Shown here: piece after piece, positions 20,183 through 44,393 of the stretch
Layout of the letters: each line of letters starts with the position of its first letter
Numbering within the stretch: the first letter of the stretch is position 1
From: Cerasicoccus arenae
Lineage (GTDB): Bacteria; Verrucomicrobiota; Verrucomicrobiia; Opitutales; Cerasicoccaceae
DNA length: 64,000 nt
Assembly (NCBI RefSeq): GCF_014651635.1
Contig: NZ_BMXG01000011.1
Coordinates: forward strand, 62,001-126,000
Reading direction: 5' to 3'
Translations under genes and position numbers: made by a program
Notes under the pieces: model-generated
The model's input: only the letters and a program-made list of their open reading frames with translations
Database searches by the model: none
Told to the model about the DNA's origin: nothing

Positions 20183-20839
20183 CTAGGTTAGACGAATGCG
20201 GCGGATTTGCGGGTTGCCGCGGTCATCTTTATAGATGATGCAGAATATTTTCATTGATGGCGAAAGATACCATGAGCTGGTGGAGAAAACGCGACCATGG
20301 CCGTTAATTTCTGCTGCAAAGGCCACCCCGTCATTGAACGGCTTTTCCTGCTTAGTGAGCGGCACCACGCTTCGCTGTTTTGATTCAACCAGTATCCGTT
20401 CCGCCCCAAGGCGGATGATTACAGATTCTTGCATGTAATTACAAATATAGACTGATCCAAGAGGGAAGGCGGTGCTCGAGTCGTCTAGAAGCTCATATTG
20501 ATACGTGAGTCCATTTGCAGTGCGTGCGGATTTGAGAAGCACGATGACATCACCAGGATCTTTAGGGAACTGTAGGTTCAATACTGGTTGTTTCTGTTCC
20601 TCGGGCACGGGCGCTTTATCATAGAGAGCGAGCTGGCGCGTGGTTGGGATTGTGTGAACCTGAGAGAAACTTGACATCGAAACGGGTACGGTAATCACCT
20701 TCCCTTCACTGACATACTCCAGGCTTGTCAGGCCTGGGATCTGCGTAAGGCTTACAACGCGAAAATTGTCTGCAAACGTTAATGAGCACAGGCCGATTAG
20801 GCTATAGGCGAACAGACATGCTATTTTTTGAATCTTCAT
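20183..20839 (-). CDS. Exported partner of the giant pseudopilin-like protein (copy 1)
   Basis: A 218-residue protein with a signal peptide (residues 1-23, ending TFA). I do not recognise a named family. It has a beta-rich body with short alternating hydrophobic strands, a conserved-looking opening FRVVSLTQIPGLTSL, and no enzyme motif. It lies 15 bp downstream of the giant pseudopilin-like gene, on the same strand, so the two are translated from one message. A protein of similar length and opening (LRFISLNGSIHDDL) sits in the same position after the second giant gene at 34285-34971, which points to a fixed functional pair. It may be a periplasmic assembly or stabilising factor. Confidence 0.72.
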   Translation of the reverse strand: MKIQKIACLFAYSLIGLCSLTFADNFRVVSLTQIPGLTSLEYVSEGKVITVPVSMSSFSQVHTIPTTRQLALYDKAPVPEEQKQPVLNLQFPKDPGDVIVLLKSARTANGLTYQYELLDDSSTAFPLGSVYICNYMQESVIIRLGAERILVESKQRSVVPLTKQEKPFNDGVAFAAEINGHGRVFSTSSWYLSPSMKIFCIIYKDDRGNPQIRRIRLT

Positions 20840-20854
20840 TTTGACTTTGGCGAT

Positions 20855-23800
20855 TTAGACTTCATCTCGAGTCAGCCAGCGGAAGCTGACGATTTCGAAT
20901 TCTCGACCAAAAGTATCAGCTGTAGAATTTGCCTCAGGCGTTTCCCAAGGCTGTGGGCCATTGTTATCATCTGAGCCGACGTAGTTACGCTTGCGCTGGA
21001 CGACCGCTTCGCACCATGCCTCGGCAACGACGCCATTGACGTCTCGAACATCGCCGTAGGCGCGTATGGTGAATGTTTCTGAGCGTGCGCTCAGGACTGG
21101 TATGATTGGTTTGAGTAATTCCGCTTGGGTGATGTAGCCCGGCAGGCCCTCGTTACGGTCTCCTAGTAGGCTTTCAGGTGATGCTAGGCCAACTGCGTTT
21201 ACAATGTCATTGCTGGTGACTGTGTTTGAGCCAAAGCGGGTGCTCAGTGCTTCATTGAGGGCTGCATCATCGGATTCTGTGTTGATGCCGCTTTCGTCTA
21301 TCGCAGCTTGGACTGCCCCAGTGCGGTTCATTGCGTTCCGAGTAGAGATCTCACGATTAAAGAACTGACCTAGTGAAAGAAATGGTCCGCGCGCCTTGAC
21401 TTGCGCGACTATTTTCTCGGCCAAGCCTTGTATCTGTTTATCGGTTAGCGCTCTAAAGCCACTCCACAGTGCTGAGTTGGCTGATTGATAATTGCCGGCT
21501 TGGCCTTCGGCCGAACTGCCAGCAGGAAATGTTTTGGAAATGATTGGTGTGCGATCCGCATTAACTTCTTCCTGTAGACTACCTATGCTCAGATCGTTAT
21601 AGGTAACGGCCTTGCCGCGTGAGGCGGAGAGCATGGCGGCCCAAGCGTCCACCGAAGTTGAGTTGATGTTGAAAGCGTTGTCTACTGAGAGGTAGGCGGC
21701 CAATCGTAAGTATTCCTCGCCGGGTGTCTCTTGGACCTTAGCGGTTATCGATGTGAGGCTTTCTTCCTCACTAATAGAATAGGCAGGGTTCAGGAGGCTA
21801 TCGTCGCCCTCGAGTAGGTCTTCCAGCAATTGCTTTGCAACTTTGCTATTTGTAGCGAATGGCCCGCCGTTGTTTGCTAGGCCGCTGAAGTAATAACTGT
21901 CGAATAGGGCGTTGTTCAAAAAGTAGGATCGGTCTACATTGTAGGCACCATCCCAAACTTCGTTTTCGGCGAGCATGGGGTGGAGGTAGCTGTTGCCCAC
22001 GGCTCGGTTATAGACCGGGCCCATGTTGCGGCGGCGTGGGTCACTGGTGGGAAGCTCACTGGGCGGTGTCTTATCATTGGCAAATTGGGTATATTGGTAG
22101 ACGAGGTGATCATAATCTCGACCCAATGGTGCGTGCTCCAATTGACCGAGAGAAAGCGGGGGACTAACCGTTAGTTCCTTGGCGACATTTGAATAAACGA
22201 GGTCTGAGCCGGAGCGAAAAAACGCGCGCAAGGTATTGGGGTCATACTGAAGATAATCACCAGACCCGACTTCGCCATTGAATTCAAAACGGAAGGGGGC
22301 GACCGAGAGAGCGGCCTCGTCGACATCCTCTGTGTAGTAATAGGCGTTAGCGGGATCAGTGAAGAGGCCAGGCTTACCTAGGCCCTTGTTTTCATCGAAG
22401 GCACGGATGTCGAAGGTTAAGGTAAAGACTGGTGCTAGACCGGTGAAATCGCCATTGGGTGTGAGCATGTTGGGTAAGCTGGCGAAGTTGATTGTTTCTT
22501 CGTGCTCGTATTTATCTGGCAGGTAGGAGGCGTTCAGAGCATCCTCGCTGTTGATGTGGAATACCCCCGCCTGCTGGCGCTCACCATATTCTCCGCCTGC
22601 GTTTGATTTGAAAAGAAATTGATTGTTTTCATCTGATAATTTGACGAATATTTTCCCCCCTCCGGTTGCGAGTAGCTTAGTGTCTGGCCATGATTTTTGA
22701 TTGGGCTGTTCGACACTAGTGAGTAGACATGGTGAGAAGATGCCCATTGCGCCCTCGCTGAAGTTTCGAGTTGCTTGCTGCAAGCGTCCGGCGGTGCCGC
22801 CAGCAGCGTCTCCCCAGAAGATATCGCGCTCCGGCCAGTCCATCCACAGTTTCTCGTTGTACTCATTCTTCTTATCAGGAATGCGTCTGAGCGTTATCAG
22901 GCGCATTTCGCCCGGTGGGATGCTTATGGCTTCTTCCAGTTCAAAGTTAGAGCTGTTGAGTGAGATCAGCTCGCCGGCATAGAACCATAAAATTTTGTCT
23001 AGGCTCTTGTAGTTGTTACCGTTGTCGAAGGAGAAATCGATGTCTGGCAGTGACGCGAGCAGATTAATGGCGGCCGTCTTATCCCTAGCCATGTGGATGG
23101 TGACATTATAGGGATTCCAGATGTAGATAATTGGAGTCACCATCAAGTAAACGATCTCGTCATTACTCTGGTAATCGGTGTTGGGCAGTTCGTTTCCGTT
23201 TTTGCCGTCGAGACGTTGGTCTGACTGCAAGTAGGGTAGGCCGTCATATGTGTTATAGCCCTTGTAAAGTGAGAAAACATATTGATAGCGGACCGCGACA
23301 GGCAGTGGGGCGTCGCCCTTTTTATTCGGCGCAAGATCGTCGAATGTTTCCGGTTTTACATCGAGAAAATCAATGACTGGTGCGCCATTAGACTGTTCAT
23401 CGAGCATTAGGTAGCGATTGTGGAAGCGCTGTACATAATCCCAAGTGGGGCCATTGACAATCGGGTTAGGTTCAGGGCCCAGGGTGAACAGCGCATCTGG
23501 TCGGTTGCTTGAATCGAGGAATGAGCTCGGAAGTGTCGTTTGTGATAGTGCGAGGCTAAGATCTTTCCGAAAACCGCCATTTTTAACGTCGATGAGCATC
23601 CCCTTTTTGTAGGGAGTCAATGAGTGGAATTTGCCTTCATAAGCATCGTCTCTTCCTAGCTGATGGATGGTGGTCAGCTTGAGTATGTCGTGGCTAAAAA
23701 TGATCGATTGATCAATGTCATCCGTGTTCAGGTCTTCCCAGTCACTGACCGCGCGCAAGTTCGCATTGCTGTTCGAGGAGATCGCGTTGATTTTGTCAAT

Positions 23801-24535
23801 GTTTTGAGAAGCAGCCGTCGGTGTTTCCGTTAGAACGCTTGCTTTCACGCCATCATCGCCGACCCAATAGGCGAAGCCGTTTTGCTGCCAAGATTCAGTG
23901 TCACTTTGAATGGCTTCGCGAGGTGCGTAAACGTAGTGATCCTCCATGTCTACGGAGTTTCCGATGCTGCCTTCGCCGACGAGCTTCACGGCTTCGTCGG
24001 ACGTGGTATCGAAGTTTATGGCGAGTTTCAGAATATCGGTACCTTGCAACTCCGTGTCACGAAAACCGGAGACAAGCCAGCCGCGGAAATTAGCTGGTTT
24101 GCCATCCGATGCAGTTGCTAATGTGGGGTTATCTTGACGGTCGGACGCGCCATCCCAATCCAGACTATTCCAAACGCCAGTCCAGTAGGGTTGTTTAACG
24201 TTGGCCGTGCCATCTGTATCTTCAAATCCGGAGGTCTCGGGATTGCTGTCGAGGATTGCGGCGTTGGCTGATATTCTTTGGTCGGGGCCAAGGTGCCGCT
24301 GTAATTCACCAATTGCAACTTGCAGACCGAAGAGTGCGTTTTGATGCGCAAGAGATTGGTCCTTGGTGTGGGTTGCGTTTCTGGTCTGCACACGCACGAG
24401 GGTTGCCATGGATAGCGCGAGCAGGATCATCATTGACATTAGGGTCAATGCGATTGCCAAGGCGAACCCACCATTTTGGCTTCTTGCGTCCATGGGGATT
24501 GGGGCTTTGAGATTGCTGTAGGGGTTCGGTTTCAT
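20855..24535 (-). CDS. Giant pseudopilin-like protein resembling Verru_Chthon cassette protein A (copy 1)
   Basis: A protein of about 1226 residues; the ATG at 24535 is used (a GTG three bases earlier is possible). Residues about 20-48 form a prepilin-like helix, GGFALAIALTLMSMMILLA, after a Gln-Asn-Gly step. It lacks the +5 glutamate, as does GspK, the minor pseudopilin of type II secretion. The rest is large, Asp/Asn-rich and globular. Near residues 1025-1065 a helix pair reads LAEKIVAQVKARGPFLSLGQ, resembling the SAM-like region of GspK, and the end (about 1150-1226) has the strand EIVSFRWLTRDEV. Length and layout match my memory of the Verrucomicrobia 'cassette protein A' family. It follows the TPR gene (109 bp) and likely shares operator site 5. 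Confidence 0.72.
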   Translation of the reverse strand: MKPNPYSNLKAPIPMDARSQNGGFALAIALTLMSMMILLALSMATLVRVQTRNATHTKDQSLAHQNALFGLQVAIGELQRHLGPDQRISANAAILDSNPETSGFEDTDGTANVKQPYWTGVWNSLDWDGASDRQDNPTLATASDGKPANFRGWLVSGFRDTELQGTDILKLAINFDTTSDEAVKLVGEGSIGNSVDMEDHYVYAPREAIQSDTESWQQNGFAYWVGDDGVKASVLTETPTAASQNIDKINAISSNSNANLRAVSDWEDLNTDDIDQSIIFSHDILKLTTIHQLGRDDAYEGKFHSLTPYKKGMLIDVKNGGFRKDLSLALSQTTLPSSFLDSSNRPDALFTLGPEPNPIVNGPTWDYVQRFHNRYLMLDEQSNGAPVIDFLDVKPETFDDLAPNKKGDAPLPVAVRYQYVFSLYKGYNTYDGLPYLQSDQRLDGKNGNELPNTDYQSNDEIVYLMVTPIIYIWNPYNVTIHMARDKTAAINLLASLPDIDFSFDNGNNYKSLDKILWFYAGELISLNSSNFELEEAISIPPGEMRLITLRRIPDKKNEYNEKLWMDWPERDIFWGDAAGGTAGRLQQATRNFSEGAMGIFSPCLLTSVEQPNQKSWPDTKLLATGGGKIFVKLSDENNQFLFKSNAGGEYGERQQAGVFHINSEDALNASYLPDKYEHEETINFASLPNMLTPNGDFTGLAPVFTLTFDIRAFDENKGLGKPGLFTDPANAYYYTEDVDEAALSVAPFRFEFNGEVGSGDYLQYDPNTLRAFFRSGSDLVYSNVAKELTVSPPLSLGQLEHAPLGRDYDHLVYQYTQFANDKTPPSELPTSDPRRRNMGPVYNRAVGNSYLHPMLAENEVWDGAYNVDRSYFLNNALFDSYYFSGLANNGGPFATNSKVAKQLLEDLLEGDDSLLNPAYSISEEESLTSITAKVQETPGEEYLRLAAYLSVDNAFNINSTSVDAWAAMLSASRGKAVTYNDLSIGSLQEEVNADRTPIISKTFPAGSSAEGQAGNYQSANSALWSGFRALTDKQIQGLAEKIVAQVKARGPFLSLGQFFNREISTRNAMNRTGAVQAAIDESGINTESDDAALNEALSTRFGSNTVTSNDIVNAVGLASPESLLGDRNEGLPGYITQAELLKPIIPVLSARSETFTIRAYGDVRDVNGVVAEAWCEAVVQRKRNYVGSDDNNGPQPWETPEANSTADTFGREFEIVSFRWLTRDEV

Positions 24536-24593
24536 CACTCGGCAGGGCGCTGCCGGGACAGGCTGTCCTTAAAGAACTAACCGAAATAGGGTG

Positions 24594-24624
24594 GCTTGTC
24601 GGCAAAAAAATGTAACCGACAAGC
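24594..24624. other. Hairpin between TPR and giant pseudopilin genes
   Basis: GCTTGTCGG and CCGACAAGC form a 9-bp perfect stem around a 13-nt A-rich loop in the 109-bp gap. No T-run follows the stem on either strand, so it is more likely an RNA-stability or processing element than a full terminator. Confidence 0.5.
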
Positions 24625-24644
24625 AGCCCCAAATGGAGTTGCGA

Positions 24645-25133
24645 TCACAGCGCCTCGAATTCAACAACGGTGATGCGTTGCTTGGCGGCATCAGATGGTC
24701 GCCAGAACCAGCCCTTTGGGTCCCAAGTCTGGGCGAAAGATAGCTCATTGACGAGTTTTTGGTAGTCGGCCAGCGCAAGTTTTGATTCCCCTTTTGCTTC
24801 GTAGGCTTGGCCGCGAATGAACAGGCATGTGCCCACATCGTTGAGCGCCCACATCTCTGAAGCAGTTTCTTTGGGTGCTGGTTCAGTCATTGCAGATTGC
24901 ATTTTCTCTGCCTCGGCACTGTACATTTCAATGCACTTGCTGGTATAGTCGATTGCGAGATCGTATTGCTTTTTGCCCATAGCATCCCATGCCTTGCCGG
25001 TCAGTGCTTCCGAGCTGAAGTTGCCATAGTCCGCCTCGGGGGTTGGGGCATCTTGGGCCGATGCGCTGAAGGCAAGCAGTGCGCTTGTGAGGGTAAGCAT
25101 CAGGAGTGTTTTGATCTGGTAACTGCGTTTCAT
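24645..25133 (-). CDS. Exported TPR-like protein of a beta-glucan locus
   Basis: A 162-residue exported protein with a signal peptide (1-26, ending SAQ). The body carries helix pairs of a tetratricopeptide type: KAWDAMGKKQYDLAIDYTSK (about 47-67) and GQAYEAKGESKLALADYQKL (about 112-130), then a conserved WDPKGWFWRPSDAAKQRI ending. I recall proteins with this ending being annotated as 'beta-glucanase precursor', although there is no catalytic motif. It is first in an apparent operon with the giant pseudopilin-like gene and its partner. An operator copy lies 46 bp upstream. A role as scaffold or assembly factor is an inference. Confidence 0.75.
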   Translation of the reverse strand: MKRSYQIKTLLMLTLTSALLAFSASAQDAPTPEADYGNFSSEALTGKAWDAMGKKQYDLAIDYTSKCIEMYSAEAEKMQSAMTEPAPKETASEMWALNDVGTCLFIRGQAYEAKGESKLALADYQKLVNELSFAQTWDPKGWFWRPSDAAKQRITVVEFEAL

Positions 25134-25178
25134 GGAATTAACTGTGAATTATGAAGGTTTAAGGGTCAATCTTAAAAA

Positions 25179-25192
25179 TGCAAATAAATGCA
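25179..25192. promoter_or_regulatory. Operator, TGCA-N6-TGCA class (regulon 2, site 5)
   Basis: TGCAAATAAATGCA lies 45 bp upstream of the TPR gene start at 25133. It would place the whole TPR/giant pseudopilin/partner operon in the beta-glucan regulon. Confidence 0.75.
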
Positions 25193-25357
25193 ATTTTTGA
25201 TATTTAAATGGCAGTGAATGAATTTAAATTCTGAATTTTTAGTTGCCTTGGGGGTGTGCTTTTTGGGATCCTTTAGCGTGTTGATGGCGATATCCGTGTT
25301 CGGAGATAGGGCCTTCTGGGTGTGTATGCATGGATTTTGATTCGATGAGCGGCTTTG

Positions 25358-25374
25358 CCCCCCCCCCCCCCCCC
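25358..25374. repeat. C17 homopolymer
   Basis: The longest mononucleotide run I found in the window. It lies 14 bp beyond the stop codon of the LacI gene at 25389 (G17 on its coding strand) and is non-coding. Confidence 0.9.
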
Positions 25375-25388
25375 TGTTGTCCGTTTTT

Positions 25389-26456
25389 TTATTCGAGGGG
25401 GCCGGGACGTGGTTTGTTCAGCGTCTGTCCATCAAGTAACTGGCAGCTCATGAGTATGTGCTGCGAGGGGCCAAAGCGCTTTTTAAGCAGGTCGCTCAGG
25501 CGCTTTGCGGCGGCGTAGCCAATGTTGCGGTAGGGGATTTGCACGGTGCTTAGTTGCGGTTTGCCATTGGGGGCAGGTATTCCGTCGAATCCAGTAATGG
25601 ATACGTCATCGGGGGTGCGTATACCGCGTTTTTCTAATTCGCGAATGAGGTCGTAGGCTTGATGGTCTGCGGCACAGACGTAGGCGGTGACGCCATCGCG
25701 AATCCGCTCCTCAGCAAGATCGAAACTGTCATTGAGGGAAACTATGTTACGGGGTTGTGCGTTTATCAGGTCGCGTTCTAGGATCGGGATGTCCAACTGG
25801 GTCATCTTTTCGGTGTAGGCACCGAAGCGCCGTAGGGACCAACTGGCTTCGGTTTGGTAGGCCTTGGTGTAAAAGCCAATTCGATCATGGCCAAGTGTAT
25901 GCAACTTGTTGATCAAGAGAGCTATGCCCTGATAATGGTTGACGTCGACACAGTCCAGATCGCCAGAGCTACGTTGTTCCACTAATGATACGCACGGCAT
26001 GCGGATCAATAGCTCATCTATTACGGGTTTTGGAAATGGATAGAGCAGGAGCAATCCGGACCATGTGCGGCCTACCGTGGTGAGTAGGTTTCTGTATTCT
26101 GGATGTTGAATCGAGTGCACATCTGGGTCAACGAAGTGCACGGAAATGCCAACCTTGGCGAGTTGGCAGTATTCGGAGACGCCCTTGAGTAGCAGTTTGC
26201 CGGGGCTCTCGTAATCCATGCGGTGGTATTCCTCTTCCTTGGAGCAGATGAGTACGCCGAAAATCGGGCGTGTGCGCTTAGTGCTGGAATTGGAGCTACG
26301 CATGGAGATGTGATTATAGCCAATGCGTGACGCCATTTCGAACACGTTCGCCCTAGTTTCGGGGTTGATGCCTGGGTGGTTTGTGAAACAACGGGACACT
26401 GTTGCGCGAGACAAATTCAATGCGTCGGCAATCGCTTGCTGGTTTACTGGTTTCAT
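25389..26456 (-). CDS. LacI-family transcriptional regulator (regulon 2)
   Basis: A 355-residue LacI-type regulator. The helix-turn-helix (residues about 4-26) reads NQQAIADALNLSRATVSRCF and is followed by the usual hinge and a periplasmic-binding-protein-like sensing domain with the TGFDGIP motif near residue 295. It is divergent from the glucan operon at 26560. Two TGCA-N6-TGCA copies sit in the intergenic gap, at 26491 and 26538, the second overlapping a good promoter. This is the likely repressor of the seven-site regulon, including itself. The inducer is probably a beta-1,3-gluco-oligosaccharide, judging by the enzymes it appears to control. Confidence 0.92.
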   Translation of the reverse strand: MKPVNQQAIADALNLSRATVSRCFTNHPGINPETRANVFEMASRIGYNHISMRSSNSSTKRTRPIFGVLICSKEEEYHRMDYESPGKLLLKGVSEYCQLAKVGISVHFVDPDVHSIQHPEYRNLLTTVGRTWSGLLLLYPFPKPVIDELLIRMPCVSLVEQRSSGDLDCVDVNHYQGIALLINKLHTLGHDRIGFYTKAYQTEASWSLRRFGAYTEKMTQLDIPILERDLINAQPRNIVSLNDSFDLAEERIRDGVTAYVCAADHQAYDLIRELEKRGIRTPDDVSITGFDGIPAPNGKPQLSTVQIPYRNIGYAAAKRLSDLLKKRFGPSQHILMSCQLLDGQTLNKPRPGPLE

Positions 26457-26490
26457 ATATAATTTGGTAAGAAAGTGTTCCTAAATGTTT

Positions 26491-26504
26491 TGCGATTTAA
26501 TGCA
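26491..26504. promoter_or_regulatory. Operator, TGCA-N6-TGCA class (regulon 2, site 6; one mismatch)
   Basis: TGCGATTTAATGCA lies 35 bp upstream of the LacI start codon at 26456 and suggests autoregulation. Confidence 0.65.
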
Positions 26505-26523
26505 ACAAAATCATAAATTGCTC

Positions 26524-26551
26524 TTGACAATGGGCATTGCAAAATTATGCA
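26524..26551 (+). promoter_or_regulatory. Sigma-70-like promoter overlapping operator site 7
   Basis: TTGACA (26524-26529) and TATGCA (26546-26551) are 16 bp apart. Operator site 7 overlaps the -10 box, a classic arrangement for repression. It would start transcription a few bases before the ATG at 26560, leaving almost no leader. Confidence 0.62.
26538..26551. promoter_or_regulatory. Operator, TGCA-N6-TGCA class (regulon 2, site 7)
   Basis: TGCAAAATTATGCA lies inside the larger palindrome TTGCAAAATTATGCAA and overlaps the -10 box of the glucan operon. Confidence 0.78.
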
Positions 26552-26559
26552 ATTTATGC

Positions 26560-27876: not shown

Positions 27877-27902
27877 AATTACGTAAGAAATCTGATTAGG
27901 CT

Positions 27903-30900
27903 ATGATTAGTGATAGTATTTCCGGCACCGAAATTCGGAGTGAAAAACAAAGTTGGCATGCTGATGCTGACGAGTCTAGTACCGTAATGGTGAATGACGA
28001 ACGCTTTATCGCTATTGAAAGAGCAGAGCTAATGGCGTCATTTTTCCTGACAATGGTTAGCGCGACGAATCACTGGTTTTTCGTCAGCAGCCAGGGCGCA
28101 TTGACGGCGGGTCGTGGGTCTCCTGATACAGCACTGTTTCCCTACTATACAGTCGACAAGATTATGGACAACTGGAATGTGACCGGCCCGCAGACAGTCA
28201 TCCAGGCGGGCAGTTCTCGTTGGGAACCTTTTAAGCCCTATTCCGAACGGCATTTTGATATTCAGCGTCGATTGTTAAAAAGCATCAATAGTGATTCCAT
28301 CATTTTTGAAGAGACCAATCTGAGCTTGCAACTACGTTTCACCTATCGCTGGCGGACGTCAGAGCGTTTTGGCTTTATTCGCACCGTGATGCTGCAAAAT
28401 TTATCGGAGAAGCAGCAGGCGCTTGATGTGGTAGATGGTTTGGAGAATTTTCTGCCTGCTGGTCTCGACCAGCGTACGCAGAACGTATATAGTTGCCTTG
28501 GTGATGCATATAAGCAGACCGAAATCGATGCTGGATGTGGGTTGTTGGTTCACCGGATGGCATCGGGGCTAACGGATGAAGCTGTGCCGATGGAGGTGTT
28601 GCTGGCGACCACAGTTTGGTCTCATGGCTGGCCTCAAAGCAGAGTGCTTGGGCAGCGCAGCTCGGCCATGGCATTTTTAGATGGACTGGGTTTGAGTGAG
28701 ACGGATCGAATACGCGCCGCTCGCGGTGCGTATTACAACGCTGGTCGTATTATACTACAACCCCGTGCGAAGAAGGAATGGGGACAGGTGGCAGAGATTC
28801 TCCAGACTCAGTCCAATGTCGCCTTGTTGAGCAATCAGCTAACAGAGCCAGATAAGCTCTGGGAAGCTGTTTGTGCCGATATGGACAATGGAAGTGAAAG
28901 GCTTGAAGGACTGCTTGCGTCATCGGATGGCTGTCAGTTAACAGCAGATACCCCTTATTGCGCCCATCACCGATCTAATGTCCTTTTCAATATTATGCGC
29001 GGTGGTGTATTTGCTGATAATTACTCTATCGACCGCGAGCTTTTGATTAATTCGATCCGCGTGTTCAAGAAGAATTTGAGAATTGAGGAGGAAAAATGGC
29101 TAAATTCACTGCCCGATAAGATTGGCTATCCGGAATTAATTGTGAAGGCGCGTCAACAAGACAGTGAAGATATTGTTCGACTTTGCCGAGAGCACTTGCC
29201 GTTGGTTTTCAGTCGACGCCATGGGGATCCGAGTAGACCTTGGAACCGATTCAATATTAAGACCAAAGATTTTCAAGGGCGTGATCTTGTTGGGTTTGAA
29301 GGCAATTGGCGGGACATTTTTCAAAATTGGGAAGCACTTTCCTATAGTTTTCCGCGCTTTAACGATGCATTTCTAAACAAGTTTTTAAACGCGTCTACGG
29401 CAGACGGCTATAATCCTTACCGTATCACGTCACGCGGGGTGGATTGGGAAAAGCCAGACCCAAATGACCCCTGGGCGTCTATTGGCTATTGGGGGGATCA
29501 TCAGATTATATATTTGCTCAAGTTTTTGGAGTTTTCCGAGCATTTCAATCCCAACGGATTTCGCTCGATGTTGCACGAAATGAGTTTTGTTTTTGCTGAT
29601 GTGCCTTATGAAGTAAAATCGTTCACTGAGCTCGTAAAGGATCCAAAGCAGTCAATTCGGTTTAACAAAGAGCATGATCGCCTAATTAATGATCGGGTGA
29701 CTGAATATGGAGCCGATGGAAAGCTGTTGCACGATGTTACCGGCGCTTTGCATCGAGTTAGCTTGATGGAGAAGCTGCTCATACCGGCGCTGGTTAAGCT
29801 CAGTAATTTTTGTCCAGGTGGTGGAATCTGGATGAATACGCAACGCCCAGAGTGGAACGATGCGAACAATGCATTAGCAGGGTGGGGCTTGTCGATGGTC
29901 ACCACTTCTTACCTATACCGATATCTATGCTTTCTTCAGAGCTTGGTGGTGGATGAGGATATTTCTTTCCAGTGTAGTGAGTCGGTGCTTGAGCTCCTAT
30001 CTGCGCAGCAACGGATTTTTAAAGCATCGCCTGAGTTAAGCTGTTTGTGCCGCCATGAGTGCTATAATTTATTCAGTCAATTGGGACTGTCTGGTGAGCA
30101 ATATCGTGAACGTGTTTACGCTAAAAAATTTGGATCACAAAGTAAAATAAGAGCCACTGAAATTTCAGAGTGGATTAAGTCGGCTCTTGAACATGTCAAG
30201 TCGACGATTGTCTCCAGTCAACGCTCAGATGGTCTCTTTCATTCATATAACACACTGTGCATAGATGCAGAATCCAAGTCTGCTAGAGTTAAACATTTGG
30301 GGGAGATGCTGGAAGGCCAAGTCGCCGTGTTGAGCTCGGGTATTTTGTCTCCGCTTGAATCGATAGCTGTTCTTGAAGCGCTTCGGTCCAGCCAATTGTA
30401 TTGTCCTCAGAGAAATAGCTATGTGCTATATCCAGACAAAGAGTTGCCTGCGTTTCTTGAGATGGGACGAGTTCCTATGGTGACAGCGAAAGCGGTTCCG
30501 CTTTTGGCTAGATTGCTGGAGCAGGGGGACACATCGTTGATCGAGTATTCGCCTAGTGAGGGCTGCTGTCGATTTAACGCTAACCTAGCGAATCGTTTTG
30601 AATTAGATAAAGTCCTTGATGGTTTTGAATCGAACAGTGAGTTGGTTGATCTCATCGCTAAGGATCGTGGTTCTATCCATCAAATATATGAGGCCACTTT
30701 CAACCATCAGAGCTTCACTGGTCGCAGTGGCTCGATGTTTGCTTATGAAGGGCTGGGGAGCATATATTGGCACATGGTTTCGAAGCTGATGCTTGCTGTC
30801 GCAGAAATCGCGCTGCAGGCAGCAGAATCTGACGACGCCAGCTACCTCAAGCTAAGAACCCACTATTATACGGTTCAAGATGGACTAGGTTTCCGCAAGA

Positions 30901-31370
30901 CATCTGAGGAGTATGGAGCCTTTCCTCCTGACGCCTACTCGCATACACCTGCTCATGCTGGCGCGCAGCAACCGGGTTTGACTGGCATGGTGAAGGAGGG
31001 TATTTTAGCCCGGTTCGCTGAATTGGGGGTGAGTTTTGTTCGTAGCAGAATTCGTTTTAAGCCACGTCTACTGCGTGATCAGGAGTTTCTACAAGAGGAT
31101 ACATGCTGTCGAATTCTTAGTAAAGATGGCACGTCACGCGAATTGAATGTTCCTGAGCGCGGGCTTCTATTTACGTTAGCGCAAACGCCAATAATATACC
31201 AGTTATCCGATAGGGATACTACGCAGATCCAAGTCTATGATGCTCATGGAACAGTGACCATAATTGACGATGATAAACTGCCGAGTAATATAACTGCTGA
31301 GATAATCGATCGAATGGGGAGCATCGACCATCTCGTCGTCAGACTATCTGCATCGAATGATTTACGATGA
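27903..31370 (+). CDS. Giant GH94-clan, phosphorylase-like enzyme, probably acting on beta-1,3-glucan oligosaccharides
   Basis: A 1155-residue cytoplasmic protein without a signal. Two motifs mark the helical (alpha/alpha)6 core of cellobiose-phosphorylase-like enzymes: GYWGDHQIIYLLKFL near residue 527 with a plausible catalytic acid (Asp) and WNDANNALAGWGLSMVTTSY near 650. The length exceeds classic GH94 (about 800) and is nearer the roughly 1100-residue GH149 and GH161 beta-1,3-glucan phosphorylases. I cannot tell which family it belongs to by eye. Position between a GH-A glycosidase, a sugar symporter and GH30 supports a role releasing glucose-1-phosphate from imported laminari-oligosaccharides. 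It starts 26 bp after the previous gene and its stop overlaps the next start by 4 bp (ATGA). Confidence 0.78.
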   Translation: MISDSISGTEIRSEKQSWHADADESSTVMVNDERFIAIERAELMASFFLTMVSATNHWFFVSSQGALTAGRGSPDTALFPYYTVDKIMDNWNVTGPQTVIQAGSSRWEPFKPYSERHFDIQRRLLKSINSDSIIFEETNLSLQLRFTYRWRTSERFGFIRTVMLQNLSEKQQALDVVDGLENFLPAGLDQRTQNVYSCLGDAYKQTEIDAGCGLLVHRMASGLTDEAVPMEVLLATTVWSHGWPQSRVLGQRSSAMAFLDGLGLSETDRIRAARGAYYNAGRIILQPRAKKEWGQVAEILQTQSNVALLSNQLTEPDKLWEAVCADMDNGSERLEGLLASSDGCQLTADTPYCAHHRSNVLFNIMRGGVFADNYSIDRELLINSIRVFKKNLRIEEEKWLNSLPDKIGYPELIVKARQQDSEDIVRLCREHLPLVFSRRHGDPSRPWNRFNIKTKDFQGRDLVGFEGNWRDIFQNWEALSYSFPRFNDAFLNKFLNASTADGYNPYRITSRGVDWEKPDPNDPWASIGYWGDHQIIYLLKFLEFSEHFNPNGFRSMLHEMSFVFADVPYEVKSFTELVKDPKQSIRFNKEHDRLINDRVTEYGADGKLLHDVTGALHRVSLMEKLLIPALVKLSNFCPGGGIWMNTQRPEWNDANNALAGWGLSMVTTSYLYRYLCFLQSLVVDEDISFQCSESVLELLSAQQRIFKASPELSCLCRHECYNLFSQLGLSGEQYRERVYAKKFGSQSKIRATEISEWIKSALEHVKSTIVSSQRSDGLFHSYNTLCIDAESKSARVKHLGEMLEGQVAVLSSGILSPLESIAVLEALRSSQLYCPQRNSYVLYPDKELPAFLEMGRVPMVTAKAVPLLARLLEQGDTSLIEYSPSEGCCRFNANLANRFELDKVLDGFESNSELVDLIAKDRGSIHQIYEATFNHQSFTGRSGSMFAYEGLGSIYWHMVSKLMLAVAEIALQAAESDDASYLKLRTHYYTVQDGLGFRKTSEEYGAFPPDAYSHTPAHAGAQQPGLTGMVKEGILARFAELGVSFVRSRIRFKPRLLRDQEFLQEDTCCRILSKDGTSRELNVPERGLLFTLAQTPIIYQLSDRDTTQIQVYDAHGTVTIIDDDKLPSNITAEIIDRMGSIDHLVVRLSASNDLR

Positions 31371-32749: not shown

Positions 32750-32758
32750 GATTAAATT

Positions 32759-34258
32759 ATGATGAAAATGACCTCTCTCATGGCGTTATCGGCGTCAGTC
32801 TTAATTGGCCCTGCTAGCGCAGTTGCATCCTTCGAAATTTTCCAGACATCTCGTCAAGGCGATCGCTTGGACAAAGTAGATGCGGAGGCAACCGGCCCTT
32901 CTACCTACACACTGACGTTGAATCCTGAAAAAACCTATCAGACGCTGGTTGGTATCGGTGGCTCTTTTACGGAGTCTGGGGGCCAGGTTCTCAGCGAACT
33001 TTCCAAGACGAAGCGTGAGCTTGCGCTGCGAAGTTATTTCTCGCCAGCTGGCGCTCATTACACGCTCACGCGTACTCACATTGCAAGCAGTGACTTTTCT
33101 GTAACCAACTACACCTATGCGCCGGTTCCGGGAGACAACGAATTGGCGCATTTCTCAATCGATCCGGACCGCAAATATTTGTTGCCCATGATCAAGGAGG
33201 CGCAGGGAATTGCAGGCGCGGAATTTAGTATTCTCTCGTCGCCATGGACGCCACCGCCTTGGATGAAAACTAACAATGATTGGAATGGAGGTCATCTTAA
33301 GCGTGAGCATTATCAGACATTCGCCGATTATATTGTTAAGTACATTAAGGCATATGAAGCTGAGGGAATCCCCATCTGGGGCATCACGCCGGCTAATGAA
33401 CCACTGGGCAATGGTTCGAATTGGGAGAGTGTTCATTTTTCTGCTCAGGAGATGAGTGAATACATTGGGGACTACCTTGGGCCCGTACTCGAAAAGCACG
33501 CGCCGGCCGTCAAAATATGGGCCTACGATCAAAACCGCGGCCATCACCTTGTCGAGTGGGCGGAGGCGATTCTGGGCAATTCGAAGTCGGCCAAGTATGT
33601 CGAAGGTATGGCGATCCATTGGTACCAAAGTACAGTCGACATTGACGCAGAGTCGTTGGACAAAGTGCATGAGGAATTTCCGAACAAACAGATTTTGCAT
33701 TCCGAAGGATGCATTGACGCCATAGGAGACGATGAAGAAATTGGTGTCTGGCTGGAAGACGATTGGTATTGGCGTGCTGAAGCGACTGATTGGGGCTACA
33801 CTTGGGCTGCTGACGAAAATAAGGTGCACCATCCCAAGTATCGTCCGTTTTACCGCTATGCTCGCGACTTGATTGGCGGCTTTAATCACCACCTTGTTGG
33901 CTGGGTTGATTGGAATATGTTTCTCAACACTCGTGGCGGCCCAAATCATGCGCGCAATTATTGTTTAGCCCCAATTCTGGTGGATAGTGGAAAGGATGAG
34001 TTCTACCGTACTCCCTTGTTCTATGCAGTGGCCCATTTCAGTCGCTACATGCGTCCCGGTGCCAAGCGCATTGATTTGACCGGCCATGACCAGTTTTTAA
34101 TGGCGACTGCTTTCAAGAATCCTGATGATTCAATTGCCGTTGCTGTGTTTAACACGTCTGAAGAGAGTATTAACTACGAGTTGAAAATGGGTGCTAGTCA
34201 AAAGTTGTGTTCGATCCCCGGTCAGGCGTTACAGACAGTTGTAATTAGCCACCCTTAA
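32759..34258 (+). CDS. Exported GH30 beta-glucosidase/glucanase
   Basis: A 499-residue secreted enzyme with a signal peptide (residues about 1-23). It opens with the GH30 feature YQTLVGIGGSFTESGG, then SSPWTPPPWMKTN near residue 160. The acid/base Glu is in TPANEPLGN (about 213) and the nucleophile in ILHSEGC (about 313); a C-terminal beta-sandwich ends near 497. GH30 includes beta-1,6-glucanases (GH30_3) and beta-glucosidases (GH30_1). In this operon a role in removing beta-1,6 side chains or glucose residues from laminarin-like glucan is likely. The last gene of the operon; its end converges with the gene at 34285. Confidence 0.92.
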   Translation: MMKMTSLMALSASVLIGPASAVASFEIFQTSRQGDRLDKVDAEATGPSTYTLTLNPEKTYQTLVGIGGSFTESGGQVLSELSKTKRELALRSYFSPAGAHYTLTRTHIASSDFSVTNYTYAPVPGDNELAHFSIDPDRKYLLPMIKEAQGIAGAEFSILSSPWTPPPWMKTNNDWNGGHLKREHYQTFADYIVKYIKAYEAEGIPIWGITPANEPLGNGSNWESVHFSAQEMSEYIGDYLGPVLEKHAPAVKIWAYDQNRGHHLVEWAEAILGNSKSAKYVEGMAIHWYQSTVDIDAESLDKVHEEFPNKQILHSEGCIDAIGDDEEIGVWLEDDWYWRAEATDWGYTWAADENKVHHPKYRPFYRYARDLIGGFNHHLVGWVDWNMFLNTRGGPNHARNYCLAPILVDSGKDEFYRTPLFYAVAHFSRYMRPGAKRIDLTGHDQFLMATAFKNPDDSIAVAVFNTSEESINYELKMGASQKLCSIPGQALQTVVISHP

Positions 34259-34284
34259 GAAGCGAATTTTGATTGCCCACATGT

Positions 34285-34971
34285 CTATTGCTGGTCTTCT
34301 GATTCACTTGGTGGAGGTCGATCGTAGAAGGATAGCATGTCGACGATGACCTTGTCCCGCCCAGGAACGGGGCGACCATCGCGTAGCAACAAGAGTACGC
34401 GTAGGCCGGGACGGAGGGCTATCGGGTTGCTGAAGATCAGTGACCATTTGTCATCCGTGTGGGCGGCCAGGCTGATGACCACCCGCTGACGCTCGGTGTC
34501 GAAATTGAGATGATGACTCTGACCTGGCGACAACTGAAAATCCTCCTCACTCAAGCGAAAGGCCAAGTCTACATTGGATAGATTGATCACGAACACAGTC
34601 TCCTCTGGTCGGCTTATCGAGGAATCGGGTAGACAGATGGCGGTGACATCTTCAGCTGGATTTCGATTCAGAATGACGAGCCCTTGCTCCAAATCAGTCG
34701 GAAGGGAAAGCCCTAGCACTTTTTTTCGATGGAGCACTCCCTTTTCGTCAGGGACATCTCGGTAGAGGCTGAGCATGTTTTCTTCATCGTAATCATAGAT
34801 GGATGAAAAGACATTTTCGTCGGCACGGATATACACTTTGTTTTTTCCGCTGACAATATACAGGTCGTCGTGGATACTACCATTTAGGCTGATGAAACGC
34901 AGGGAAAGCGCTAAACCACAAAGTGGGGTGAAGAGGAGTACGGTGAAAATGAGGCGCCAAGCTAAGAACAT
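34285..34971 (-). CDS. Exported partner of the giant pseudopilin-like protein (copy 2)
   Basis: A 228-residue protein with a signal anchor or peptide (about residues 5-23) and no recognised family. Its early mature region (LRFISLNGSIHDDLYIVSG) resembles that of the copy at 20183-20839. It lies 6 bp downstream of a giant pseudopilin-like gene, repeating the arrangement of copy 1. The body is beta-rich and charged, ending in a proline- and acid-rich tail. It is likely an accessory factor dedicated to its upstream partner. Confidence 0.7.
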   Translation of the reverse strand: MFLAWRLIFTVLLFTPLCGLALSLRFISLNGSIHDDLYIVSGKNKVYIRADENVFSSIYDYDEENMLSLYRDVPDEKGVLHRKKVLGLSLPTDLEQGLVILNRNPAEDVTAICLPDSSISRPEETVFVINLSNVDLAFRLSEEDFQLSPGQSHHLNFDTERQRVVISLAAHTDDKWSLIFSNPIALRPGLRVLLLLRDGRPVPGRDKVIVDMLSFYDRPPPSESEDQQ

Positions 34972-34977
34972 AATTAT

Positions 34978-37900
34978 TTAGATTTCATTGGTGGCAAGCC
35001 AGCGGAAGGACACCAGTTGGAAGCGGCGCCCAAAGAGGTCATTCGTGGTGTCATCTTGTGGGGTTTCCCAAGGATCAAGATTATCGTCTAAGTAATATGG
35101 TAGGCGTTGGACGGTTGCTTCACACCATGCGCGACTTTCGATCTCGCCACTGATTGGATTTCGTACGTCGCCGTAACAGCGAATAATGAAAGTGTCTGAG
35201 CGGGCGGTGAGAACAGGGCTGAGCGTGGTCAGCAGGTCGGCTTGGGTCAAGTAACCGGGAGCGAAGGCTGCTCGCGAAGCGAAGGGCTTGTCGACGTCAT
35301 CGTCGTTATCGCTGCCTATCCAGTGAGAGCGAATTACGACGGCGGGAATCACGTTTTGTGTCACATCAATCTGCTTGTCAGTATCAGTGAAATCTTCCTG
35401 TCCATTGATTCGCTCTTCGTTGGGTATTCCTGGATCAGAGTCCACCGAATCGATCGCGGCCTGAAGCGGGCCTTTCAGGCCAGTTTCGTCGTTGGCAAGC
35501 CGTCGATTAACAAAGTCGGCCATCGAAGAGAATGGCCCACGCAAACGCACCTGCTCGACTATTTTCTCAGCTAAATGGTCGATTTGGGCGTCAGTCAACG
35601 CACGATTGCCGCTCCAAATGGAGTTCGTGCTGATGTTGGTGTCGGAATCGAGATAGCGCGGGAAACTGTGGGTGAGCTCGGTGTCCGAGTCGGATGCGAT
35701 GATGCCGTTTCGGCTGTGCAGGAGCGCCTTCCATGCTTCCACGGAGGTGGAGTTGACGTTGAAGGCACCTTCCACCATGAGGGCCGAGGCGGCCTGTGTT
35801 GGTTTGGTCAGACGCTGACGGATCGTCTCGGTTTCGCTGCCACCTTCCTGTAGGATGGTGTTGCGCGCATTTGGCAGGAAGTAAGAGGGATTGAGAATCT
35901 GGTCCGTGGTCAGTTCGTTGGGTACGGTGGAGAAGAAGTAGTCGTCCCAGAGCGCTTCGTTGAGAGTGTAGGAAAGGTCGTAGATGTTTTCCAACTGGCG
36001 GAAGGGGGGATATTGCGGACGATTGTCGACTCCAGCGCCGTAAAGCGAAGTGACGGTTTGCTCGCGGGGAACCCAGGGATCGGCGAGGGAGTTACCCACA
36101 GCGTAGGTCGGGTTAGAAGTCATGAGCGAGAGGTTGGCGTGCTGCAGTTGGGCGAGGGAAAAAATGGGCGTTTGTGCTGGTCGAAAAGATTTGACCACCA
36201 TGTCGACGGGATTGCCGTTTTCATCCAGTCCGACATCGGGTCCCGGCCCGACCGATCCACGGTTGTTACTGCCGAAGCTTGGGCCTGGGTGGGTGCTGCC
36301 CTGTATGTCCATGTAATAGACATGGCTGCCGGTGCCTCTGGGGCGGAGGGAGTCTGGGGCGATCGGGTTAAAGAGGGCTATCCAGCGGGAATGCTGTCCG
36401 AAAGCACCATAAGTGTCCTCAGAGAAGCGCATTTCGATCCGGCAATATAGCAGCGGCTCGAAGATGAGTCCAGGGTCGCGATTTTCAAAGTTGAAGGGGC
36501 TGTTCACTGGCGAGTGACTATAAATTCCTGTCGAACCTGGAGATTGTATGTGTTGGTAAATGACATCTTCGTCGTCGGCATCGCGAAGTGAGATCACCAT
36601 CTGTCCGGGGCCGTTACCCATGTAATAGGCGACTGGCTCGGTGGTGTCATCGGTCTTCGTAGTATGAAGGTCCTCTGCGCTCATAATTGGACCGGGTAAT
36701 GTCACGGAATTGTCGGCCCGGATTGGTTGGTTGGGCGATAAGACATTGTGGGACTCGTTGTATGCTTCCGACGTATCGAGGGTAAATACCAAGCTCTGGC
36801 CAGGCTCGATTTGAGGCGAATTGAGGCGGAAGCGAAGTTCTCTTTCTTCGGCGGGTATTTGGTCGTCGACTCCCTTGAAAATCGGATAGTTGAGGTAGCC
36901 TGTGGCGAAGGCCTGCGAGTCGTAGCTCCCCCCCGGTGCTTTGTCGCTGGTAGCGCGTCGCAGGATCGGATGCGATATATATGGGCCTACCGCATCGACG
37001 GCTTCGCTTTCCTTGCCGACGATAATCGTGAAGTAGTTGTCTCGCGTATCAAAAAGCATGGTGTAATCATGGGCGGCGATCGGCACGTTATAGGGATTCC
37101 ACAGGACGACGACGGGAAAAATGTGGAGGTTCATGGGCTGTCCCTCCCCGGAATTGGAGACGTTGAAGCCGATCCGAGTGTAGGTAATATAGGGGTGCAG
37201 GCCTGAGCTCGATGCGGGGATGTCTTTTGTGGACTGGTTCGATGAGGTGGCGATGCGATCCGGCGCAATGGGGGCGTAGGCGTTTCCGTCGCCGATGATT
37301 TCGGCATACTCACGAATCATACCCCAAGTGGGCAAATAGGTGTCCGCTTCGGTGATGTAGTCGGTGTCGCGTGGAGGGTTGGCAGCAGAGTCAGGTTGGG
37401 CCAGCCATGCTGTGAGGTCCTTTTTCAGCCCTCCATCGACAACATTAGCCAATACGCCGCGCGAAGTGGTGGTCAAGTCATGGAATCGGTATGCAAGTGC
37501 GTCATGTAGAGTTTTCTCGGCGATGACTGAGTTGGCGGATAGTGGTAGTTGGCTGAGCGATTGCACATTATTGAGGGAGCTCTTGAAATCCGGATCATCG
37601 GCGTCGTAGGCGGTGCCCAAGTCATTTCCGATGGAATCGCTCATACCCTCAATCCCACTGCGAGCGTTGCTGATGTAGCGATATTGCTTGGCCGTGTCGT
37701 TGCTGATTCCGGTGGTGTTCAGGACTGTGGGGTCAGGGCTTTCCCAAGGGTCAGTCAGCTTGGCATTGGCCTTGGTGCCTTCGTCCCCAATCCAGTAAGC
37801 AAAGCGTCCATTCCCATCACCGATGGATTCACTGAGGACTTTGACTTGCGAGCTGGCATCGACGGACTCGTGCAGCATCCAGACAACCGTGTCGTCAGTG

Positions 37901-38346
37901 GATGGATTCCCCAAGTTATCGGCGGCGTCACTTTGGCCGCTTACCAGCCATGCCAGAGGGATCGCGGGATCGAGCGGACCCGAGGTGGTATCCCATACAC
38001 CGGTGAAGTATGGATTGGCCACATCTGCGACTAAATCCGCCCGCGCTGTCACTCGTTGGTCTGACCCGGCCAATTGCTGGACTTTCCCTAAGGCGACCTG
38101 TAGGCCCAATAGTGCGTTCTGCTGTGCCTGCACCCTATTCAGAGATTGCGTGGTGGAAAGCACCTCCACTCTGGTCAAGGTCGTGAGGGATAGCGACAAC
38201 AGAAGAATAAACGCCATCAGCGTCATACTGATTATCAGGGCGAAACCTTGTTGGCTTGAGGTCGATCGTGGGGGGGGGGGCGAGGGCATCAGTGGGGAAG
38301 GGTGTTGCTCTTCGATTACATGGTTAGAGTATCTATTAAGCATCAT
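34978..38346 (-). CDS. Giant pseudopilin-like protein resembling Verru_Chthon cassette protein A (copy 2)
   Basis: A 1122-residue paralogue of the protein at 20855-24535. An N-terminal polar stretch contains a PSPPPP run made by a G11 tract (38270-38280 on the + strand). It is followed by the prepilin-like helix QQGFALIISMTLMAFILLLS (about residues 33-52). The shared helix-pair motif is LAEKIVEQVRLRGPFSS near residue 920, and the C-terminus again ends in LVSFRWLATNEI after PWETP. Such size and order match GspK-type minor pseudopilins only loosely. A TTCTA-N4-TAGAA operator (38382) lies 36 bp upstream, so this copy belongs to regulon 3, not to the beta-glucan regulon. Confidence 0.72.
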   Translation of the reverse strand: MMLNRYSNHVIEEQHPSPLMPSPPPPRSTSSQQGFALIISMTLMAFILLLSLSLTTLTRVEVLSTTQSLNRVQAQQNALLGLQVALGKVQQLAGSDQRVTARADLVADVANPYFTGVWDTTSGPLDPAIPLAWLVSGQSDAADNLGNPSTDDTVVWMLHESVDASSQVKVLSESIGDGNGRFAYWIGDEGTKANAKLTDPWESPDPTVLNTTGISNDTAKQYRYISNARSGIEGMSDSIGNDLGTAYDADDPDFKSSLNNVQSLSQLPLSANSVIAEKTLHDALAYRFHDLTTTSRGVLANVVDGGLKKDLTAWLAQPDSAANPPRDTDYITEADTYLPTWGMIREYAEIIGDGNAYAPIAPDRIATSSNQSTKDIPASSSGLHPYITYTRIGFNVSNSGEGQPMNLHIFPVVVLWNPYNVPIAAHDYTMLFDTRDNYFTIIVGKESEAVDAVGPYISHPILRRATSDKAPGGSYDSQAFATGYLNYPIFKGVDDQIPAEERELRFRLNSPQIEPGQSLVFTLDTSEAYNESHNVLSPNQPIRADNSVTLPGPIMSAEDLHTTKTDDTTEPVAYYMGNGPGQMVISLRDADDEDVIYQHIQSPGSTGIYSHSPVNSPFNFENRDPGLIFEPLLYCRIEMRFSEDTYGAFGQHSRWIALFNPIAPDSLRPRGTGSHVYYMDIQGSTHPGPSFGSNNRGSVGPGPDVGLDENGNPVDMVVKSFRPAQTPIFSLAQLQHANLSLMTSNPTYAVGNSLADPWVPREQTVTSLYGAGVDNRPQYPPFRQLENIYDLSYTLNEALWDDYFFSTVPNELTTDQILNPSYFLPNARNTILQEGGSETETIRQRLTKPTQAASALMVEGAFNVNSTSVEAWKALLHSRNGIIASDSDTELTHSFPRYLDSDTNISTNSIWSGNRALTDAQIDHLAEKIVEQVRLRGPFSSMADFVNRRLANDETGLKGPLQAAIDSVDSDPGIPNEERINGQEDFTDTDKQIDVTQNVIPAVVIRSHWIGSDNDDDVDKPFASRAAFAPGYLTQADLLTTLSPVLTARSDTFIIRCYGDVRNPISGEIESRAWCEATVQRLPYYLDDNLDPWETPQDDTTNDLFGRRFQLVSFRWLATNEI
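38270..38280. repeat. G11 homopolymer at the N-terminus of a coding region
   Basis: This run lies within the first 26 codons of the giant pseudopilin-like gene. Slippage would put the gene out of frame before its prepilin helix. Confidence 0.9.
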
Positions 38347-38381: not shown

Positions 38382-38395
38382 TTCTATCAATAGAA
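38382..38395. promoter_or_regulatory. Operator, TTCTA-N4-TAGAA class (regulon 3, site 1)
   Basis: The exact palindrome TTCTATCAATAGAA is located between the divergent giant pseudopilin-like gene (start 38346) and the GH92 gene (start 38524). Confidence 0.78.
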
Positions 38396-44346: not shown

Positions 44347-44393
44347 AGAAAACAAATTGCACAATGAATGAGTGCGGGAGAAAAGAGTGCGGC

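Follow-up and report, generated by a model that had tools for sequence, protein, structure and literature searches.

The window analyzed here is a stretch of 64,000 nucleotides from Cerasicoccus arenae (Verrucomicrobiota; Opitutales), corresponding to positions 62,001 to 126,000 of the forward strand of contig NZ_BMXG01000011.1 in RefSeq assembly GCF_014651635.1. The genome amounts to 4.13 Mb in 63 contigs and is 97.6% complete. Two gene pairs in the window are the subject of this report; each is composed of a very large protein with a prepilin-like N-terminus, referred to below as a giant, and a small exported protein encoded directly after it, referred to as its partner. The genes of the two pairs, and the gene that probably leads the first operon, are listed below with positions numbered from the first nucleotide of the window.

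24645..25133, minus strand: TPR protein (Pfam TPR_1, 29.3 bits), first gene of a probable TPR-giant 1-partner 1 operon
20855..24538, minus strand: giant 1, 1227 residues from a GTG start or 1226 from the next ATG; putative GspK-type tip pseudopilin with a large insert, assigned through homology to giant 2
20183..20839, minus strand: partner 1, 218 residues, predicted to be exported and to have two tandem beta-sandwich domains; starts 15 bp after giant 1
34978..38346, minus strand: giant 2, 1122 residues; in the predicted model, helix at 35-93, GspK-like parts at about 28-297 and 851-1122, and an insert at about 298-850
34285..34971, minus strand: partner 2, 228 residues, of the same family as partner 1; starts 6 bp after giant 2

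The first-pass annotation of this DNA had described the four genes as two diverged copies of one pair. The four open reading frames (ORFs) were confirmed at these coordinates and with the sizes claimed for them (about 1226 and 1122 residues for the giants, 218 and 228 for the partners), and the prepilin-like helix, the LAEKIV..QV..RGPF helix pair and the C-terminal SFRWL strand were found to be common to both giants. BLASTP shows the giants to be homologous: their C-terminal parts align with 189 bits and their N-terminal parts with 105 bits. The two partners share weak pairwise homology (30 bits, E 2e-5) and, together with 16 other paralogues, form one family by alignment and clustering. None of the four proteins matches a Pfam family. 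The description as homologous pairs was correct; these are two of 19 copies in the genome, which could not be seen from the window alone.

A search with giant 1 returned 19 distinct giants in the genome, all in one BLAST cluster, across which Pfam gave just two single weak matches. A partner lies directly 3' of the giant in all 19 cases, including both window pairs, for which a small exported partner had been claimed. Eighteen of these partners were identified by ORF calling; that of the pair designated C3 was identified with a profile hidden Markov model (HMM; 136-177 bits) and by its reading frame, its ATG being 11 bp inside the end of the giant. The distance between giant and partner ranges from -34 to +21 bp over the 19 pairs. 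In a sample of relatives (the best 80 of 565, from named genome records), an HMM-detectable partner follows the giant in 63, two of these being marginal (E 5e-5 to 6e-5); a giant fragment of 128 residues, L074, was left out of this count. Among the matches listed for 194 genomes of the phylum, giants were found in 53 genomes (E 1e-20) and partners in 30 (E 1e-3), and all 30 fall within the 53; two of the 30 are marginal. The nearest relatives of the C. arenae genome among the matches listed are of Opitutales type.

Two other arrangements were observed among the relatives. L152 (G113:C1:204000-223990), from a single-contig genome of 2,664,102 bp, encodes two divergent giants, 7867-11850(-) and 11728-15033(+), with no HMM-detectable partner alongside; an exported-looking protein of 285 residues follows one of them. 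In two related small genomes (L207, 3914-6002; L208, 12517-14363), a second and weaker partner-family protein (33-34 bits) adjoins the first.

The structure of giant 2 was predicted with AlphaFold2 from 55 aligned homologues (predicted local distance difference test score, pLDDT, 80.8; predicted template modelling score 0.85), and the model contains a long N-terminal helix at 35-93. When compared with solved structures, the model matched 5vtm_X (XcpX) with Z 11.8 over 228 of 259 residues at a root-mean-square deviation of 3.4 in a second-look alignment, followed by 6utu_C (Z 11.5), 9a1f_T (11.4) and 3ci0_K (GspK, 11.3); the next row scores 5.2. All four are chains of pseudopilin tip complexes, 6utu_C and 9a1f_T having been taken as XcpX from title and length. 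The model of giant 2 has the GspK fold over most of the GspK length, and each giant is thus predicted to be a GspK-type tip subunit, with giant 1 assigned by homology to giant 2.

The sequences carry the features of type 4 filament pilins and pseudopilins, namely a prepilin site, a hydrophobic stretch and a predicted long N-terminal helix, and as such the giants would be processed by prepilin peptidase. The G/A-F prepilin site is present in 19 of 19 giants. A conserved NINTA-type C-terminal region is a GspK motif, for which the giants gave colinear but weak profile matches (Prob 25% and 18%), and the lack of a Glu at mature position 5 is a GspK hallmark; this Glu is absent after the prepilin site in all 19 C. 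arenae giants and in seven of seven short homologues described below. Weak N-terminal matches to NCBIfam GspK models were obtained for both window giants and for 14 of 19 overall. A GspK profile was built from 30 GspK loci, which gave 24 ORFs by rule, of which 15 proteins of the phylum were kept by eye; the N-terminus of the giant profile aligns with these 15 proteins (Prob 95.5). A sequence search of the PDB returned nothing for the giants and weak unrelated rows only for the partners.

The first-pass annotation had likened the giants to protein A of the Verru_Chthon cassette or to GspK, and had pointed to an HMM comparison with both families. In this comparison the giants fall under the cut-offs of TIGR02600 (Verru_Chthon A) and of NF037980 (GspK), with similarity at the N-terminus. 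Weak TIGR02600 matches were found in 14 of 19 giants, the best at 27 bits against a cut-off of 332.3 and confined to about 60 N-terminal positions, and hhalign against eight TIGR02600 members aligned just 71 N-terminal columns. Membership in Verru_Chthon A was rejected on these grounds. No protein in the C. arenae genome scores above the TIGR02600 cut-off, and true members occur in four of the 194 phylum genomes, all outside its order. What stands is a relation to GspK through the predicted fold and an A-like position in the operons of relatives.

The size of the giants is explained by comparison with short homologues from seven relatives, whose ORFs encode 411-446 residues. These align with giant 2 from about 24-29 to about 294-304 (L205 only to 206), and again from about 1027-1041 up to the C-terminal end (1085 in the case of L205). 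A further match to giant 2, at about 854-883, is present in two of the short forms, with at most three residues separating it from the first match. A giant is therefore a GspK-like subunit of normal size with about 550 extra residues (about 298-850). Residues 382-689 of the giant 2 model, within this insert, weakly resemble a domain of glycoside hydrolase (GH) family 2 enzymes with Z of about 5, which may be chance level. None of the seven short forms has the insert, and none is followed by a partner when the next genes are inspected; a partner follows in all four of the long forms encoded within an operon (L190, L191, L193 and L197). In this small set, insert and partner co-occur.

In the model of partner 1 (pLDDT 92.2), an N-terminal helix at 2-18 is followed by two beta-sandwich domains. 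The nearest solved fold is PepT2 (Z 12.5-13.5 over 171-194 residues), and the second half resembles single domains of AlgF (Z 8.6-9.4). In this model the likeness is one of fold only and names no function, and no sequence family in Pfam or NCBIfam was matched above cut-off. Covariation was determined for 18 of the C. arenae pairs, the C3 pair being excluded. Distances between partners correlate with those between whole giants (Mantel r 0.755, 0 of 9999 shuffles). By region, r was determined to be 0.79 for the insert, 0.50 and 0.51 for the two GspK-like parts, and 0.25 for the N-terminal segment; the insert is the longest region and hence the best measured. The partial correlation of insert and partner given the GspK parts is 0.68 (0 of 4999 shuffles), and that of the GspK parts and partner given the insert is 0.009 (2295 of 4999 shuffles). 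Such a preference for the insert is not expected from linked inheritance alone, and it suggests that the partner contacts the insert. The link between giant and partner that had been proposed for the window pairs is supported in this form, by covariation.

In relatives with few giants, the giant commonly belongs to a pseudopilin operon. In 11 of 19 regions fetched from such genomes the giant is immediately 3' of a C-like pseudopilin gene, and in seven of these 11 all five core genes, G-G2-D-B-C, were detected in order. Two further regions (L192 and L200), cut at contig ends, place the giant beside a C-like gene. In C. arenae the G-G2-D-B-C core is found at C8:63063-66562 with neither giant nor partner beside it; the names of the genes next to this core were read from their sequences. 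The best matches of its C- and B-like genes are to the Verru_Chthon C and B models; D is a weaker match, and all are below cut-off. No D-, B- or C-like gene was detected around the giant in any of the 80 relatives, within up to 8 kb on each side and less at contig ends. Core genes do not adjoin the window giants either, where only single G2-like (small PulG-like) pilins were found, at 4262 and 58513. The view of the window as a split or alternative cassette, with only an A-like protein and a partner, is borne out in that no B-, C- or D-type core gene stands beside either giant, relatives have the giant after D-, B- and C-like genes, and the core is here on another contig.

Several other candidates for associated pilins were considered and rejected. 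The two PulG-like pilins are near the far ends of the window, and none is beside the pairs. The pilin clusters on C15 (L055) and at C4:116-130 kb (L219) gave no core match; that on C18 (L218) gave one weak C-like match, C12 (L217) has two G-like pilins, and C4:200-215 kb (L220) has one G2-like pilin. Within the regions fetched, the ordered G-G2-D-B-C set is absent from all of these clusters. The minor-pilin sets of L218 (7429-9882(+), C18) and L219 (4086-6320(-), C4) end in proteins of 817 and 744 residues with a pilin-like N-terminus, neither of which matches the model of the giants. At L055 (7516-14050, C15), type IV-like minor pilins form two divergent sets beside an apparent response regulator.

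The regulatory elements of the two window pairs were also examined. A TGCA-type operator had been assigned to the first pair and a TTCTA-type operator to the second, and each was found at five sites in the window. The sites and the putative regulators are as follows.

25179..25196, plus strand: TGCA operator, 46 bp before the TPR-giant 1-partner 1 operon; other sites at 9197, 9782, 18849 and 26538
38382..38395, plus strand: TTCTAT-ATAGAA operator, between giant 2 and the divergent GH92 gene; other sites at 45796, 49034, 50265 and 51926
25389..26456, minus strand: LacI-family regulator 1 (Peripla_BP_3, 88.5 bits; LacI helix-turn-helix 22.7 bits, below cut-off), presumed owner of the TGCA operators
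45865..46896, minus strand: LacI-family regulator 2 (LacI helix-turn-helix, 49.7 bits), presumed owner of the TTCTA operators

With up to two mismatches, the five sites of TGCAAANNNATGCAATTT (TGCA) compare with 0.35 expected, and with up to one mismatch the five sites of TTCTATNNATAGAA (TTCTA) compare with 0.07 expected; five sites were reached in 0 of 100 shuffles in either case, figures that are too flattering because both motifs were first read off the sequence. Exact copies of either motif were absent from the other loci examined, two window-covering loci aside. The TGCA sites precede the genes at 8252-9169, 10064-13303 and 18959-20086 and the TPR-giant 1-partner 1 operon, and the fifth is between LacI regulator 1 and a GH2-like gene. 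The other TTCTA sites precede genes for an esterase, a deacetylase, a PEP-CTERM-like protein (below cut-off) and a major facilitator superfamily (MFS) transporter. For nine of the ten sites, a called gene starts 28-282 bp downstream. The remaining one (26538) is inside an ORF called from 26485, shortly before an in-frame ATG at 26560, and is 82 bp upstream of the divergent start of LacI regulator 1. We presume that LacI regulator 1 owns the TGCA operators and LacI regulator 2 the TTCTA operators.

Five runs of 8-17 C residues occur in the window (19139-19149, 25358-25374, 38515-38522, 56493-56505 and 63379-63387) and are possible slippage sites. The run of 17 is just downstream of LacI regulator 1, between it and the TPR-giant 1 operon, and the run of eight ends one base before the GH92 start.

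The window pairs are surrounded by genes for carbohydrate degradation; carbohydrate families were annotated by a Pfam scan of 28 window proteins and 30 neighbors. The principal ones in the window are listed below.

13430..18712, plus strand: locus 1, GH81 protein with three F5/8-type-C stretches (Pfam), without an operator of its own; follows the gene at 10064-13303, which has two sites upstream
18959..20086, plus strand: locus 1, protein with an N-terminal hydrophobic segment and a weak PA14 match (18.1 bits, below cut-off); operator site at 18849
32759..34258, plus strand: locus 1, GH30 enzyme (Pfam), between the two pairs
38524..40488, plus strand: locus 2, GH92 enzyme (Pfam), divergent from giant 2; operator 142 bp upstream
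41971..44364, minus strand: locus 2, heparinase II/III-like protein with CBM4_9 (Pfam)
44394..45704, minus strand: locus 2, acetyl xylan esterase-like protein (Pfam); operator 92 bp upstream

Locus 1 also has a GH2-like gene and a sugar MFS transporter, and this gene content, with GH81 and GH30, suggests a beta-1,3-glucan such as laminarin as the target. The same locus encodes a protein of 1155 residues (27903-31370) without a Pfam family, which we take, as a guess, to be a GH149/GH161-type phosphorylase. A carbohydrate enzyme or binding module was found within about 8 kb of 13 of the 19 giants, a raw count without a random-region background; 12 were identified by Pfam matches over cut-off, and that on C22 through neighbors that cluster with GH1 and GH16 genes in BLAST. 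ExbD genes with an apparent ExbB are near two giants (L047, 242-6164, on C8; L050, 14607-15812, on C10), and TPR genes are found at C8.

A tree of the giants was constructed with FastTree. Its use was restricted to the scatter of the C. arenae copies and to the choice of orthologues by eye because of long branches and weak root support (51). The seven ortholog pairs picked from it share nine flanking C. arenae genes, seven of which are in the GH1/GH16 BLAST clusters. The background is a mean of 0.125 shared flanking genes per pair of C. arenae and relative loci, and random loci reached nine in 13 of 10000 draws, as did 160 of 10000 shuffles within the seven.

We consider it probable, with reservations, that C. 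arenae has one shared pseudopilus core and 19 interchangeable tip heads for different polysaccharides. Each giant would form the tip of a short type 4 filament and carry, inserted in its fold, a head of about 550 residues on which the partner would dock. The remaining subunits (G, G2 and the H-, I- and J-like proteins) would be supplied by the single shared gene set on C8, which the dispersed tips would use. Several pairs would be under local repressors that bind the operators and thereby select the tip, and the cell would load the tip that matches the available polysaccharide, with the glycan being recognized by the head. By analogy, a single filament would receive a separate tip head and partner from every polysaccharide locus. 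As to the task of the tips, substrate capture for uptake is our first choice, held with a little less than even confidence, and the recruitment of local enzymes for secretion is our second choice, about which we are rather more doubtful. In the fullest form of this proposal, 19 separately regulated, glycan-specific tips would share one core, and each head with its partner would capture one polysaccharide and bring either that polysaccharide or the enzymes attacking it across the outer membrane, as a Verrucomicrobiota counterpart of the SusC/SusD repertoire made from type 4 filament parts. That form is put forward tentatively, with somewhat more doubt than belief.

A number of results weigh against the shared-core proposal. 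On the side of the fold, Foldseek ranks 3ci0_K first for the giant 2 model with E 0.41, and the evidence for the GspK fold therefore rests on coverage and on the gap to the next row. The giants score 17-33 bits on NF037980, below its cut-off of 130 bits, which the genome's own GspK (104.5-105) likewise does not reach, and the soluble part of the giants matches the GspK profile weakly, at a Prob of 25% and 18%. No partner was detected by HMM in 17 of the 80 relatives; two of these have fewer than 300 bases of contig remaining, and nine are labelled Akkermansiaceae/Akkermansia, Verrucomicrobiaceae or Haloferula. With regard to the core, six of the 19 low-copy regions (L195, L199, L202, L207, L208 and L209) have none beside the giant, and C8 has no match to a T2SSE-type ATPase or a secretin. 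The C8 core is not the sole possible machine, because the genome has an apparently complete type II secretion system (T2SS) with its own GspK of 392 residues on C6, and three secretin matches genome-wide; the C6 genes other than GspK, secretin and ATPase were named from their sequences. With regard to carbohydrates, the scanned neighbors of six of 19 giants (C1, C10, C12, C14a, C20 and C23) gave no match over cut-off to a carbohydrate family, and two of the seven ortholog pairs have no shared flanking gene. The proximity of LacI genes is modest: they are within 5, 10 and 15 kb of 4, 7 and 10 of the 19 giants (P 0.061, 0.017 and 0.0025), with 2.9 expected at 10 kb. Coupling through ExbB/ExbD/TonB was rejected, as ExbD is within 10 kb of two of 19 giants against 0.95 expected (P 0.25).

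The T2SS on C6 also provides the basis for an alternative in which the giants replace GspK in that system and select the enzymes of their loci for export, with no import. GspK is at the top of the T2SS pseudopilus tip complex (PMC6211770), and the GH81 and GH5 proteins near giants are large, some with binding domains. Low-copy relatives, however, encode the giant together with a G-G2-D-B-C set of its own, and we regard a role as secretion adaptor as unlikely. The giants might instead form the tips of a type IV pilus by which cells adhere to algal particles, without any part in transport. The genome has T2SSE-family ATPase matches over cut-off, five full-length and five partial; in Streptococcus sanguinis a tip minor pilin carries a glycan-binding lectin module (PMC9934059), and a type IV-like pilus has been proposed for glycan attachment in Akkermansiaceae (PMC13174399). 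The operators of the two window pairs, however, recur at genes for enzymes and transporters. This points to feeding more than to attachment in general, and purely adhesive tips appear to us a still less likely explanation. It may also be that the giants are an ordinary paralogue expansion in which insert and partner merely stabilize the tip, their nearness to carbohydrate-active enzymes being due to gene density in a polysaccharide degrader. The lack of an unbiased background for the count of such neighbors, the limited LacI enrichment and the loci without a carbohydrate family are all consistent with this. Giant 2 and the GH92 gene, however, share a divergent operator region, the giant 1 operon has a motif in common with other genes, and the orthologues at the GH1/GH16 loci keep the same neighbors across species; of the three alternatives we find this one the most improbable.

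The giants resemble GspK/XcpX in that the giant 2 model matches most of GspK, in the N-terminal segment, in the lack of Glu5 and, in relatives, in following I- and J-like genes. They differ in being about three times the size owing to the insert, in having an exported partner in every case, in their dispersal and in scoring below the GspK cut-off. With the Verru_Chthon cassette A-D (TIGR02600, 02598, 02599 and 02596) they have in common that in low-copy relatives they follow D-, B- and C-like genes, and the C. arenae core genes best match the C and B models, with D weaker and all below cut-off; in contrast, the giants are below the TIGR02600 cut-off and show no profile similarity past the N-terminus.

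Close parallels are found in other filaments. ComZ of Thermus thermophilus is a GspK-like pilin whose fold carries a large inserted domain; it is a proposed tip receptor and binds the product of the adjacent gene (PMC6561018). It thus shares with the giants the GspK-like fold, the large inserted domain and the adjacent gene, whose product would also be bound in the giants. Unlike the giants, ComZ has a beta-solenoid and binds DNA, and its neighbor PilA2 is itself a pilin (PMC6561018). For the minor pilins PilA and PilC of S. sanguinis a tip complex with a grafted glycan-binding module was modelled; modules and bacterium differ from those here, and the available text does not mention a repertoire of tips (PMC9934059). 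The SusC/SusD systems of Bacteroidota and MUL1/MUL2 of Akkermansia are, like the giants, set in carbohydrate-use loci, and MUL2 includes a pilin-like protein (PMC13174399). Unlike SusC/SusD, the window loci have no match to a TonB-dependent receptor among the 28 proteins scanned with Pfam, which leaves some room, weakly, for a role of the giants in uptake. In Verruconatronum alginivorum, also of the Opitutales, growth on alginate is accompanied by over-expression of a pseudopilin, and a pseudopilin called pulG-like has 67 homologues in the genome; it need not belong to the giant family (PMC13274419).

Type 4 filament tips with added domains are already known; what differs here is the dispersed set of 19 pairs with a separate core. 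In the open-licence literature we found no account of these giants, or of 19 dispersed pairs of tip and partner with a separate core. For aquatic Verrucomicrobiota, the way in which algal and mucin polysaccharides are gripped is described as largely unstudied (PMC13174399). If the proposal made here is true, it would provide concrete genes for the question of how Verrucomicrobiota grip polysaccharides, and it would describe a type 4 filament that draws on a large stock of exchangeable tips, in which the module of insert and partner would make the choice of substrate testable.

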